From Candidatus Poribacteria bacterium (lineage in GTDB: Bacteria; Poribacteria; WGA-4E; PCPOR2b): 51,744 nucleotides of DNA. The stretch spans positions 1 to 51,744 of the forward strand of contig JAJEAL010000098.1 in NCBI GenBank assembly GCA_022822785.1, in the 5' to 3' direction. Both the position numbers and the translations under genes were made by a program. Shown here piece after piece: positions 4,221 through 30,689 of the stretch; the first letter of the stretch is position 1, and each line of letters starts with the position of its first letter. Below the pieces are notes generated by a model. The model was not told the DNA's origin, did no database searches, and was given only the letters and a program-made list of their open reading frames with translations.

Positions 4221-5141
4221 TTAACTTACGCGTAGTGCAGTTTCTTCCGTCATTAAGGTGTCCATCATGGCATGAACGCGTGGCAGGTCGTGCGGTCCCA
4301 CATCCTCAGCAAAAGGGATAACTGGGCCACCGGACAATCCGGCATAATCCATGGCTGCATGTAACGCCGAACCGCTGTACCGCGCGCCGTTCTCACCCCG
4401 AAAATCCTCAAACGGCACCATTAGTGTACGGAGACGTTCCGCCTCTGGTCTATCGCCGTCTGTGAACTTGTCGTGCAGTGTCAGGCTCATTCGTGGTACA
4501 AAATTCGCCATCCCCGAACTGAAACCGACTGCGCCGTGTGCCATGTAATCAATACAGGGGTCTTCCGCCATGCCACAGACCATCGCTGCCCGATCGCCTG
4601 CCTTTTTTACAATTCGATCAAAGGCGTCTAAGTCCTCCACGGCATACTTTAGGCCAACTACCTCGTCTAGGGTGCAGAGGTTAATCACGTCGTCGGTTGG
4701 CATAATGTCCAACCGTCGCTGGTAGAGGACTGTGGGCAACTGTACAGCTTTTGTGATCTCCCGTAGCCCGTTATACACCCCATTCGCAGAGGCGGGACCC
4801 ACCACCGGCATAATCATCACGCCGGCGACGCCAAGCGATCGGGCGATGTGTCCCATTTCTATGGCTCTCCCAAATCCGGGCCCGATACCCGGCACAATAT
4901 ACGCCGCGTCTCCGGCTGCATCGAGGAACGTGCCCACTACTGCTTCGTACTCTTCCAGAGTCGCATCGTAGACCATGCCGGTGCCGCACTCCGGCATGAT
5001 GAAGTCCACACCGTGCTGGATGAGGTAATGGACGTTTTGCCGCACACCTTCCAAATCCACCTGACGGTCTTCCCGCCGTGGCGTAATCGCAACCACCAAG
5101 ACGTTACGACACGCCTCTCTATCCACGCCCTGCTTGCCCAT
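4221..5141 (-). CDS. Dihydrodipicolinate synthase/N-acetylneuraminate lyase family protein
   Basis: A class I aldolase-fold enzyme of about 306 residues. The Schiff-base lysine is in VVGLKYAVEDLDAF and the catalytic tyrosine region in TVLYQRR. The start is taken as the ATG at 5141 (MGKQGVDRE) because GAAGGAG lies about 6 nt upstream. The stop codon of the dehydrogenase gene ends one base before it, so translation is probably coupled. Neighbouring dehydrogenase, amidohydrolase and PfkB kinase genes suggest sugar-acid catabolism, in which this would cleave or dehydrate a 2-keto-3-deoxy acid, rather than lysine biosynthesis. That role is inference. Confidence 0.87.
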   Translation of the reverse strand: MGKQGVDREACRNVLVVAITPRREDRQVDLEGVRQNVHYLIQHGVDFIMPECGTGMVYDATLEEYEAVVGTFLDAAGDAAYIVPGIGPGFGRAIEMGHIARSLGVAGVMIMPVVGPASANGVYNGLREITKAVQLPTVLYQRRLDIMPTDDVINLCTLDEVVGLKYAVEDLDAFDRIVKKAGDRAAMVCGMAEDPCIDYMAHGAVGFSSGMANFVPRMSLTLHDKFTDGDRPEAERLRTLMVPFEDFRGENGARYSGSALHAAMDYAGLSGGPVIPFAEDVGPHDLPRVHAMMDTLMTEETALRVS

Positions 5142-9104: not shown

Positions 9105-9139
9105 AAATGGTAGGACAATTGCTTGTCGTTCCCCCTTCC

Positions 9140-9173
9140 AAACCGAGCGTGCGACTTTCACCGCACTCGGCTT
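9140..9173 (-). ncRNA. Group II intron domain V
   Basis: The 34-nt hairpin starts AAGCCGAGTGCGG, has the GAAA tetraloop and closes with CGCACGCTCGGTTT. The lower helix includes the catalytic AGC opposite GGTTT. The upper helix is TGCGGT/GTCGCA with wobble pairs, and the two-base CG bulge sits where expected. This is the most conserved part of all group II introns and the strongest single piece of evidence for the element. A domain VI-like stem GACAA/TTGTC follows at once. Confidence 0.9.
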
Positions 9174-9220
9174 TCCGAATCAATAATGATAACAAGTTAA
9201 ACCTTCCTAATTAACTATCG

Positions 9221-9226
9221 TATAAT
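9221..9226 (+). promoter_or_regulatory. Possible -10 box for the 9249-9665 gene
   Basis: TATAAT sits 23 nt before the ribosome-bound start at 9249 and just before a GGGGAGGG ribosome site. The -35 candidate TTAAAC (9197-9202) is weak, with an 18-nt spacer. It would drive transcription against the direction of the surrounding intron. Confidence 0.45.
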
Positions 9227-9248
9227 ACAATTGAGGGGAGGGTTCGAC

Positions 9249-9665
9249 ATGGAGATTTTAGTTATACTTGGTATTATCGGAGGTGTCTGGTTTTACTTCT
9301 CTGTTTTGAGACACTCTGATGTTCGAGTTGATTCTACTGAGGTTGCAAAGACCTTTCAGCGTGTTTATAATCTTAATAGTAGTAGTGGTGAGGTTTATGA
9401 TAAGTTAGACCGTTACAGGAGAGTGATGTCGGTAGTCTTTCTCGCTGAAGGACTTCCAACCGTCGTAGGTGACAATGCTGCCACGATTGCGGAGTCAACT
9501 TTGGTGCAAGCAATGGAGAACGCTCCGCCACCTCTTATGTTTCGATCTATCGTCTACTATTCTAACCTGCTTATTCTCACTACCCGATATAATCGTGAGT
9601 TGAAGGTTCGTGAGTTAAAGGTTATTGCTGAGACAGTAGTTGCAGAGATTGATCCTGATATTTAG
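9249..9665 (+). CDS. Small membrane-anchored protein of unknown function, intron passenger
   Basis: I do not recognise this 138-residue protein. Residues 2-19 form one hydrophobic segment (EILVILGIIGGVWFYFSV), so it is probably an N-terminally anchored membrane protein with a mostly helical soluble domain. The ATG at 9249 follows GGGGAGGG at good spacing; a TTG at 9231 lies inside that ribosome site and is unlikely. Codon choice (GTT, GAT, TCT) is more AT-rich than in map or eno. It lies within predicted domain IV of the intron but on the opposite strand, so it reads as cargo. It has its own -10-like box. Real coding is likely but unproven. Confidence 0.6.
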   Translation: MEILVILGIIGGVWFYFSVLRHSDVRVDSTEVAKTFQRVYNLNSSSGEVYDKLDRYRRVMSVVFLAEGLPTVVGDNAATIAESTLVQAMENAPPPLMFRSIVYYSNLLILTTRYNRELKVRELKVIAETVVAEIDPDI

Positions 9666-9814
9666 ATTATTCGTGACAGGTAGAGTTTGGCGAGGTATAA
9701 TGATCCGAGTAGAACCCGGGGATAGATAGGATCATACATAGGCAAGTGAACCCCTCCCGAAAGAGAGGAGGTTGCTCACCTATAAGCCTGTCCATCACTT
9801 TAATTGTACCAGCC

Positions 9815-10294
9815 TTAAATCTTACCTGTCAATCGCAATCTCATCAAACTCAGGTAGTCAACACCTTTATTGATAAAATTTGCCCTCTCTTTTCGGGAAT
9901 ACAGGTTGTCAATTGAGTTATGACACTCGGCGTGAAAAAGTCTTAAGTTGCCTAACTTCCAGTCCCCGCCTTCACTGTGTGGCTTGAGGTGATGTTTCTC
10001 TATTGCTGATCCCCGTACCTGTTTATCGATAATAGGTTTCTTGCAATGTGAGCACTTACCTTTCTGCCTACGGAATAGTTGGGTTAGTATTGCTGACCCG
10101 TAGATACTATCCTTCGCATTCCTGTATTCTCGGTTCTCCCAGTCTTTATCATCATTCGTAACCGCTTTATCCAGTTTCATCTGAATACTTTGGACGTGAT
10201 TTTCAAACTCGGTGACACTTTGATGTGAGAATACGCCGAATCCAGTCGTTTGACAGGGCAAGCCCCGCTTTTCATCGGTGCTGGTTAAATTCAT
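9815..10294 (-). CDS. HNH endonuclease, probably a maturase remnant without RT domain
   Basis: This 159-residue protein is encoded in the same sense as the intron, inside its domain IV. An HNH/McrA zinc-type domain fills residues 75-130. It shows C81-x2-C84, HH at 101-102, N116, H121 and C124, within a KGKCSHC...HHLKPHSEGG...NLRLFHAECH pattern. That pattern is typical of the C-terminal endonuclease domain of group II intron proteins. Residues 25-70 (HVQSIQMKLDKAV...SAILTQ) resemble the region just before RT1 in such proteins, so an internal deletion of RT and X domains is plausible. The start has no clear ribosome site. The HNH call is firm; its origin is inference. Confidence 0.78.
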   Translation of the reverse strand: MNLTSTDEKRGLPCQTTGFGVFSHQSVTEFENHVQSIQMKLDKAVTNDDKDWENREYRNAKDSIYGSAILTQLFRRQKGKCSHCKKPIIDKQVRGSAIEKHHLKPHSEGGDWKLGNLRLFHAECHNSIDNLYSRKERANFINKGVDYLSLMRLRLTGKI

Positions 10295-10385
10295 GATTAT
10301 TCTGTTTTAAGCGCGATTCTGATAATACTCGGGCAGGAAAGTCTTGGTGGGATCTTTTTGATCGCAAGTTTGATCTCCTGTCAGG

Positions 10386-10391
10386 TATAAT
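10386..10391 (+). promoter_or_regulatory. Possible -10 box for the 10433-10630 gene
   Basis: TATAAT lies 42 nt upstream of an AGGAGG-led ATG at 10433. No convincing -35 box is at the right distance. The preceding AGG-TATAAT context also occurs near 9700 on the plus strand. Confidence 0.35.
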
Positions 10392-10432
10392 TAGAAGAAT
10401 GCCTGTTCCCGTACACTCGACAGGAGGATTTA

Positions 10433-10630
10433 ATGCAAAACAGTGTCAAACCCGCGATAATCCTTGTATACCCTTGTGGGCAATGCAAGAATATGTCTAA
10501 AGAGTTATCGGCTCTTAGACGTGAGAATGATTTGCTTCGTAGTGAGAATGTGATGTTGCTGGATAACGTAAAACGTCATGCCAAACAACTCAAACGCATT
10601 GCTGAGTCGAAGCGTCATTTATTCTCTTGA
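10433..10630 (+). CDS. 65-residue coiled-coil protein of unknown function, intron passenger
   Basis: I do not recognise this protein. The N-terminal 20 residues include a short hydrophobic stretch and the pair CGQC (residues 16-19). Residues 22-60 form a charged heptad-like helix (ELSALRRENDLLRSENVMLL), suggesting a coiled coil. The start is well supported by ACAGGAGG six nt upstream. A near-perfect hairpin with a T-rich tail (10634-10670) follows the stop at once, giving a compact promoter-gene-terminator unit. It lies in intron domain IV on the opposite strand from the intron. Confidence 0.55.
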   Translation: MQNSVKPAIILVYPCGQCKNMSKELSALRRENDLLRSENVMLLDNVKRHAKQLKRIAESKRHLFS

Positions 10631-10633
10631 TCA

Positions 10634-10670
10634 TTATACGCTTGGCGTGGGTTTCATGTCAAGCGTATAA
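10634..10670 (+). terminator. Perfect 11-bp inverted repeat, possible terminator
   Basis: TTATACGCTTG (10634-10644) is repeated as its exact reverse complement at 10660-10670, with a 15-nt loop. CCTTTTT follows 5 nt later. It begins 4 nt after the stop of the 65-residue gene. In the other orientation it would be a stem at the boundary of intron domain IV. Confidence 0.55.
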
Positions 10671-11114
10671 CTCACCTTTTTATCCTACCCTACCTTATCT
10701 CTTCGCCCTTATCTTCTCATAGAGATGACTTAGAACTCCTCCTGCTCTCACAATATACACATACGCATGGGTTGGGTTCTGCCTTTATCCCGAAGGCATT
10801 TGACTTGCCAATGAAGGTAGAATAAAGACCTTCATCTCCACATCTCAACGTGAAAGAGATGTGTTTATCCTCGTACTTTATTAGTTACAGGCTGATTATT
10901 GGAAGTCCTTCTCAAGTCTTCCACTCGCAGATTAACCTGTTTAGAATTGAGTGGACTTCAAACGGCAGTTCAACTTTCGTTTTAACCATACCACACTTAT
11001 CTGACATGGCAACTTAAAAGATTTGCATTCCTTTCGAGCCATTTGCCTGGTCCCTCTGCTCTCCATCCTGCCGTTTCCAGCGACGCAGTTGAGGTGAGAT
11101 ATGCGGTGGCAAGT
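10671..11114 (-). other. Structured RNA region of the intron (domains I-III), no gene
   Basis: No credible coding frame lies here. On the minus strand it contains several clear hairpins. ATGAAGGT/ACCTTCAT carries exon-binding site 1 in its loop. CCACTC/GAGTGG carries exon-binding site 2. ACATCTC/GAGATGT is a 7-bp stem. This density of perfect stems fits group II domains I-III. The boundaries between domains were not folded and are approximate. Confidence 0.65.
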
Positions 11115-11885
11115 TCACCGAGTCGGTTCTATCCGGCAGTACGTATTACTACGCAGAAGCGCACTTATTCTTCTATCACTGATGATTTTTATGAGGGCGG
11201 ATTGTGCAATATCTGCTGCCCCCGGAATATCCCATCGAGCAGGTTGACGGTCTTCGACCAAATTGCTGATGCCGCGTACCTCCAGAAATGGAACGTTGTA
11301 TAAGGTACAAATATGGGCGGCGGCGGCCCCCTCCATGTTTTCACACACCGCATTGAAGCGAGCATGGAGGACATCGCCGACCGCCTGAACGCCGGTACAC
11401 TGCGAAACGGTTACAAACACGCCACACCTCGCTCCGCAAATTCCAGCAGCAGTCGAAACCAATTGTGGATCCAGTGGGAAACGGTTGAAGTGAGGTGGGT
11501 TGCCGTGCACCAAAGGGATACCAATCTCGTCCGCGGGTTTCCAACCTTCGGGCGTCACCACGCCGACGTCGCCGTAAACCTCCTCTGTCGCTAGCACAAC
11601 GGATCGGATAGGTAGACCGGTCGGGACATACGCACCGCCGATCCCAAATTGGATAACCAACTCAGGGGTTTCTCGCTCAAGTTGACAAGTCATTGCATGC
11701 GCTGCATTGACGGCACCGATTCCGGTGTGAAGCAGGGTGCATCGCCAGCCGCATAAATTCCCAACGATTACCCTTTTGCCGGCGTGTTGTGCGGTCTTAG
11801 CGTTTCCGAGAGCACTTTGGATAGCACCGGATTCGAGCTCCGTTGCACTGACCAACAGCAGATTCGACTGAGTCATCTGGTCCAT
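11115..11885 (-). CDS. mqnB: Futalosine hydrolase MqnB, interrupted near its 3' end by the intron
   Basis: This nucleosidase-family enzyme acts in the futalosine route to menaquinone, releasing hypoxanthine from futalosine. Diagnostic segments are FGIGGAYVPTGL, EEVYGDVGV, CENMEGAAAAHICTL and RGISNLVEDRQPARWDIP. The start is taken as the ATG at 11885, 7 nt after the miaB stop; 11876 and 11912 are alternatives. The genuine exon appears to end at 11165 after residue 240 (IISDRRI). Without splicing, the frame runs 16 residues into the intron and stops at 11115. With splicing it gains KDGLRITNHGKR and overlaps map. The unspliced product would probably still fold, as only the extreme C-terminus changes. 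Confidence 0.87.
   Translation of the reverse strand: MDQMTQSNLLLVSATELESGAIQSALGNAKTAQHAGKRVIVGNLCGWRCTLLHTGIGAVNAAHAMTCQLERETPELVIQFGIGGAYVPTGLPIRSVVLATEEVYGDVGVVTPEGWKPADEIGIPLVHGNPPHFNRFPLDPQLVSTAAGICGARCGVFVTVSQCTGVQAVGDVLHARFNAVCENMEGAAAAHICTLYNVPFLEVRGISNLVEDRQPARWDIPGAADIAQSALIKIISDRRISALLRSNTYCRIEPTR

Positions 11886-27320: not shown

Positions 27321-30689
<3,369 letters not shown>

Follow-up and report, generated by a model that had tools for sequence, protein, structure and literature searches.

We analyzed a 51,744-nt stretch of DNA from a Candidatus Poribacteria bacterium (assembly GCA_022822785.1, contig JAJEAL010000098.1; hereafter the window), the minus strand of which carries a 2060-nt group II intron (positions 9105–11164) at the 3′ end of the menaquinone gene mqnB. 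Sequence comparison suggests that this element derives from a chloroplast-like (CL-type) group IIB retroelement intron by an in-frame internal deletion that removed the reverse transcriptase (RT), and that it is most likely immobile and becoming a relic; we put the probability of this reading at roughly 0.75. We infer the class, CL-type with structure IIB, from the nearest relative in the Protein Data Bank (PDB) and from general knowledge of such introns rather than from a tree. The genome, that of a bacterium called sponge-type, is a 5.6-Mb draft in 147 contigs with an estimated completeness of 96%, and phylum-wide searches covered 85 Poribacteria genomes.

Ribozyme domains and exon pairing

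An Rfam search gave a full-length match to RF00029 (group II intron domain V/VI) at 9175–9103 (−), with a score of 58.3 bits against a gathering threshold of 40 and an E value of 5.7e-9. It is the sole Rfam match in the window, and it confirms the domain V at 9140–9173 (−) that had been proposed in a first-pass annotation made from the letters alone. The 5′ end, which that annotation had set at a GTGCG motif at 11164, was also placed correctly: the adjoining ~480 nt match an nhmmer profile of 16 other Poribacteria introns, from which the window was excluded, with an E value of 1e-43. This match, together with column conservation, delimits the 5′ ribozyme domains (DI–DIII) to 10684–11164 (−). 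Here, 7 of 86 near-invariant columns deviate, compared with 7 of 87 in the RT-bearing intron L061 of the sister species G021 and 24 of 88 in L062, a fragment without a match to domain V. Judged by these columns, the 5′ domains have undergone no decay comparable to that of the 3′ end.

The 5′ exon ends in AGAATAA, the intron-binding site IBS1 (11165–11171 (−)), which is complementary over 7 bp to the exon-binding site EBS1, TTATTCT (10825–10819 (−)), in the loop of a hairpin predicted 340 nt from the 5′ end of the intron. A perfect complement in the EBS1 loop is found for 0.043% of the 7-mers in the window, and one anywhere in the first 480 nt for 3.5%. The homologous EBS1 loops of L064, L068, L069, L072, and L073 complement their own exons, for instance TCACAAT in L072 (exon ATTGTGA) and GCACAAT in both L068 and L069 (exon ATTGTGC). 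Because the loops of these relatives differ in sequence yet fit their own exons, and because the chance frequency is low, the pairing is not a coincidence, and the family targets by EBS1. The pairing supports the 5′ splice site of the first-pass annotation and is longer than given there. The second pairing loop named in that annotation, TTCTA at 10942–10946 (−), does have a complement in the exon (TAGAA, 11175–11171) by direct reading, but 5 bp alone are weak, and we treat it as a candidate EBS2.

A truncated intron-encoded protein

Within the intron, a 159-codon open reading frame (ORF; 9815–10294 (−)) encodes the N-terminal ~50 residues of an intron-encoded protein fused in frame to its C-terminal HNH endonuclease (En) domain (PF01844; residues 81–128, 9911–10054 (−)). 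RT and maturase domains are absent from the intron, as determined from the ORFs of the window, a Pfam scan, and an RT profile. The nearest RT protein is that of L061, which comprises RVT_N, RVT_1, GIIM, and HNH domains and has the maturase RT of entry 6me0 as its best relative in the PDB. Identity to this protein is 46% over the HNH part and 43% over the N-terminal part, and the alignment is colinear, with residues 1–50 of the remnant matching 19–69 of L061 and residues 48–152 matching 489–594. Relative to L061, ~419 residues (~1.26 kb) containing the RT and maturase domains are lost in frame, and little of the DNA-binding region remains. The homology extends to the DNA around the ORF start, which reads CCCGAGTATTATCAGAATC in the window and CCCAAGTATTATTAGAGTC in L061. 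The earlier claim that the intron has no maturase of its own therefore stands; the truncated HNH protein and two opposite-strand ORFs had been overlooked, however, and the intron is not ORF-less.

The same architecture is present in no other intron of the 85 genomes, no truncated copies of the protein were found in the genome collection or among plasmids, and viral contigs searched with the HNH alignment returned weak, short matches only. Single-sequence structure prediction of the 159-residue protein yielded an unusable model (mean pLDDT of 42). A separate internal deletion is seen in L073 (G047), where an N-terminal part of almost the same extent remains, but only ~25 residues of the C terminus. 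The common 5′ breakpoint of the two deletions may mark a retained, maturase-binding part of domain IV.

The intron thereby resembles the ORF-less TeI3 introns of Thermosynechococcus elongatus, which keep N- and C-terminal ORF remnants, the ribozyme, and EBS/IBS pairing, need a maturase in trans, and have lost ~1.5 kb from domain IV of an RT-encoding intron (PMC2882425). In TeI3, however, the frame of the remnant is disrupted, whereas in the window it is open and the whole HNH domain is kept; moreover, TeI3 exists in several copies that have been shown to move with the help of a driver protein, whereas the window intron is known from one copy, has an altered 3′ end, and has no driver in the assembly. 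With full-length CL/IIB introns of the TeI4h type (6me0) and with L061 it shares a homologous protein N-terminus and HNH domain, and with L061 also homologous ribozyme domains, but it lacks their RT, their thumb/maturase, and the greater part of their DNA-binding region. A further parallel is with group II introns whose protein has degenerated or been replaced (MatK type, O.i.I2, LAGLIDADG; PMC4424553), in which the encoded protein is likewise no longer an RT. MatK, however, retains the maturase domain and loses RT activity, while the window intron retains the opposite end, the endonuclease, and the nuclease of LAGLIDADG introns is unrelated.

The 3′ end and the mqnB–map junction

In domain VI (9105–9139 (−)), the upper helix and a putative branch-point A at 9111 are present, but the lower helix is mispaired and stays open on folding with domain V. 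The domain VI-like helix of the first-pass annotation is therefore only half formed. Domains V and VI together have a folding energy of −24.2 kcal/mol, compared with −32.0 kcal/mol for L061 and −31.2 kcal/mol for an intron on contig C46 of the same genome. Well-aligned 3′ ends of the family read CU[A]CCxUAC or a close variant, whereas the window reads CCU[A]CCAUUU/AGG, with UU in place of the expected AC (more generally AY); the relatives examined end in UAC. G020 and G021 have intronless alleles for the C46 intron, which fix its boundary as ...ACTTAC/TATGGG. While the 5′ end of the window intron is firm, its 3′ end at 9105 was placed relative to the branch-point A and is noncanonical. We read it as a probable lesion of the 3′ splice junction, and because this lesion occurs in an otherwise clear intron, we file the element as a degraded derivative rather than an intact member. 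Given the altered junction, the second splicing step would probably be inefficient, the intron probably poor at splicing, and the copy most likely immobile.

The ORF of the mqnB-like futalosine hydrolase (PF01048; 11115–11912 (−)) extends into the intron, and the downstream gene, recognized from its ORF and Pfam match, is map, encoding methionine aminopeptidase (PF00557; 8292–9077 (−)). Sister MqnB proteins end 5–8 residues past the sequence IISD, and the unspliced frame in the window continues for ~17 residues into the intron before a stop codon. The intron had been described as lying inside mqnB; it does lie at the 3′ end of the gene, but beyond the conserved part of MqnB and in the last codons, so that it barely interrupts it. 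As the MqnB frame reads into the intron and stops there, nothing requires splicing, and the host tolerates the intron because of this location and the stop codon that it supplies.

Relatives without the insertion do exist: in three congeners (G020, G018, and G022), an uninterrupted mqnB is followed directly by map. The exact junction differs by 13 nt, however, as ~13 nt (TGCGTAATATGTA in G018) that separate the homologues of the 5′-exon end and the 3′-exon start in G020, G018, and G021 are absent from the window. The proposal that the element splices is consequently not supported: the lower domain VI helix is broken, the UAC end is lacking, 13 nt of exon are missing, and MqnB has no need for splicing.

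The following course of events would account for these features. The parent would have been a full intron like that of G021, consisting of a ribozyme and an RT–maturase–HNH protein, and its insertion at the mqnB 3′ end would have been guided by EBS1/IBS1 pairing. Either after insertion or already in the donor copy, the ~1.26 kb of the protein gene would have been lost in frame, leaving the gene start and the HNH domain, and splicing and any mobility would depend on a maturase from another intron. Several points weigh against this reading. The mqnB–map spacer of G022 is a shorter one of its own, so that the 13 nt could have been missing before the intron arrived; their absence is suggestive only. 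The HNH frame has remained open, and its conservation comes close to that of a full RT: identity to other En domains averages 39%, compared with 42% for L061, and the domain has therefore not drifted far. Finally, we infer in what order the insertion, the ORF deletion, and the 3′ lesion occurred.

The decay might also have gone further, to a dead relic whose ribozyme performs neither splicing step and which is merely neutral sequence at the end of mqnB. The 3′ lesion, the loss of the RT, the extra segments in domain IV, and the loss of one HNH residue would all fit. Yet the EBS1/IBS1 pairing is perfect, and DI–DIII deviates at near-invariant columns as rarely as in the RT-bearing copy and far less than in the fragment L062, which makes complete inactivity unlikely, although it is the best of the alternatives.

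Helpers, cargo genes, and related introns

The first-pass annotation had proposed that a maturase must be borrowed. This agrees with the lack of RT and maturase domains, and the intron probably depends on a helper in trans. Neither the PF00078 profile nor a search with the L061 protein revealed a group II maturase elsewhere in the assembly, and of the full-length, RT-bearing relatives, for which the annotation had suggested searching the genome, the nearest is L061 in the sister species G021. The deleted form is present in a single copy; other matches in the genome are fragments of other introns. Two of these other introns, one on contig C14 and one on C46, run off the ends of their contigs, as would be expected if intron interiors are repeated or unbinned, and a helper is for this reason neither shown nor excluded. 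The two are not the ends of one helper intron, since, judging by sister genomes, a different exon lies upstream of the insertion on C46. The one RT detected in the genome, to which all PF00078 matches belong, lies on contig C135 (L006, 3342–6178), directly upstream of a cas1-like gene and CRISPR-like repeats, and is not a group II maturase. The C46 intron (position 29579, with L129 and L130) separates the Shine-Dalgarno sequence of a transaldolase-like gene from its start codon, at a site that is intronless in two congeners. On contig C101, a domain V-like relic (L007, ~4550–4805) lies within an inverted repeat (TGTCAAAATGTCCTGTAATT ... AATTACAGGACATTTTGACA), and the whole looks like a small transposon-like unit.

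We took a census of the family in the phylum by combining domain V, an RT profile, and a 5′ domain profile. For this one intron family, in draft genomes and with thresholds of our own, 15 introns with an RT were counted, along with ~13 RT-less introns that have 5′ domains and domain V, the window included. Most RT-less members measure 610–740 nt up to domain V, and RT-less introns whose 3′ ends are tidy are frequent in the phylum. In a published survey, the protein was absent from 281 of 2,381 introns of representative bacterial genomes (PMC8919778). RT-stripped introns thus turn out to be unusually common in Poribacteria, as far as one family in draft genomes is concerned. Three introns, L063 (G081), L077 (G063), and L070 (G042), reside in the D-loop of tRNA-Arg genes (anticodons CCT, CCT, and ACG, respectively), and ARAGORN recovers the interrupted tRNAs only once the flanks are joined; insertion into a tRNA gene has a precedent in TeI4h of T. 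elongatus, which occupies a tRNA-Ile gene (PMC2882425). The RT-less intron L069 (G045:C64) is split by an IS3-like transposase gene.

Could the window intron be active but non-autonomous, splicing and moving with the maturase of another intron of its genome, as do the ORF-less introns of T. elongatus (PMC2882425)? The intact 5′ domains, domain V, and EBS1/IBS1 would permit it, an RT-bearing copy may be unassembled where the C14 and C46 introns reach contig ends, and RT-less relatives with a tidy 3′ end are common. The altered 3′ end and domain VI, the single copy of the deleted form, and the failure to find a group II RT in an assembly that is 96% complete weigh against this possibility, which we rate somewhat below complete inactivity.

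The intron also contains two ORFs on the opposite strand. The longer, of 138 codons (9249–9665 (+)), is cargo of domain IV; it encodes a hydrophobic N-terminus, has a good ribosome-binding site, GGGAGGG, before its ATG, and exceeds the longest ORF of 200 of 200 shuffled sequences. Its product has no convincing homologues in the 85 Poribacteria genomes and none in phages or Pfam. The shorter, of 65 codons (10433–10630 (+)), follows a Shine-Dalgarno sequence AGGAGG, has a coiled-coil-like product, and lies in an additional segment with which domain IV begins (10330–10694); this segment is absent from L061 and has no convincing match in the 85 genomes. Codon-usage scoring of these small ORFs was uninformative. 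At the end of the 65-codon ORF, a perfect σ70 consensus (TTGACA-18-TATAAT, 10670–10633 (−)) sits within a 16-nt inverted repeat, which could be a promoter or merely the terminator hairpin of that ORF. A twintron or an insertion sequence as the origin of the extra length was rejected: the window has no second domain V, and no transposase emerged from a Pfam scan of the intron ORFs, the one with the HNH domain and the two on the opposite strand.

Several RT-bearing relatives likewise contain an extra ORF between the RT and domain V. In L087 (G043:C89), L108 (G052:C41), and L071 (G062:C164), it encodes homologous proteins of 135–138 residues that begin with a hydrophobic stretch (MKDKIVFF...); when the 85 genomes are searched for this protein, the top three matches are these very introns. 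In RT-less L091 (771–2036, G048:C62), domain IV holds an opposite-strand TnpB-like ORF (PF07282, PF01385) that ends ~10 nt from the 5′ ribozyme domains. No description of cargo genes between the RT and domain V was found in the literature searched, the coverage of which was partial. Poribacterial group II introns might be carriers of extra genes, with domain IV in many of them holding an additional, non-RT gene; the copy in the window would then be a stripped, maturase-dependent, non-autonomous carrier that keeps an endonuclease fragment and opposite-strand cargo. We consider this general proposal improbable.

Least probable is that the 159-residue protein is a working HNH endonuclease with which the intron would home by cutting intronless mqnB alleles, in the manner of LAGLIDADG-encoding group II introns: although the deletion leaves the frame intact, 15 of the 16 invariant residues of the En domain remain, and the relative rate is raised only slightly, the final His of the motif, present in every RT of the set with a readable motif, is replaced by Asp, AAACAGA stands in the window where L061 has the Shine-Dalgarno-like AAAGGA, the DNA-binding region is mostly deleted, and neither another intron of the 85 genomes nor the genome and plasmid collections hold a relative of this form.

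Group II introns without an RT are a known kind, and the pattern at the level of the phylum is the more interesting part. The favored reading, a deletion derivative on its way to becoming a relic, would mean that protein loss in a bacterial intron has been caught at a stage where it can still be read, with an in-frame deletion, the parent type in a sister species, and a second deletion, in L073, from nearly the same codon. The loss of the retroelement protein and the ensuing dependence on a helper are a step proposed toward spliceosomal introns, and Poribacteria offer a place outside the cyanobacteria where both could be studied.

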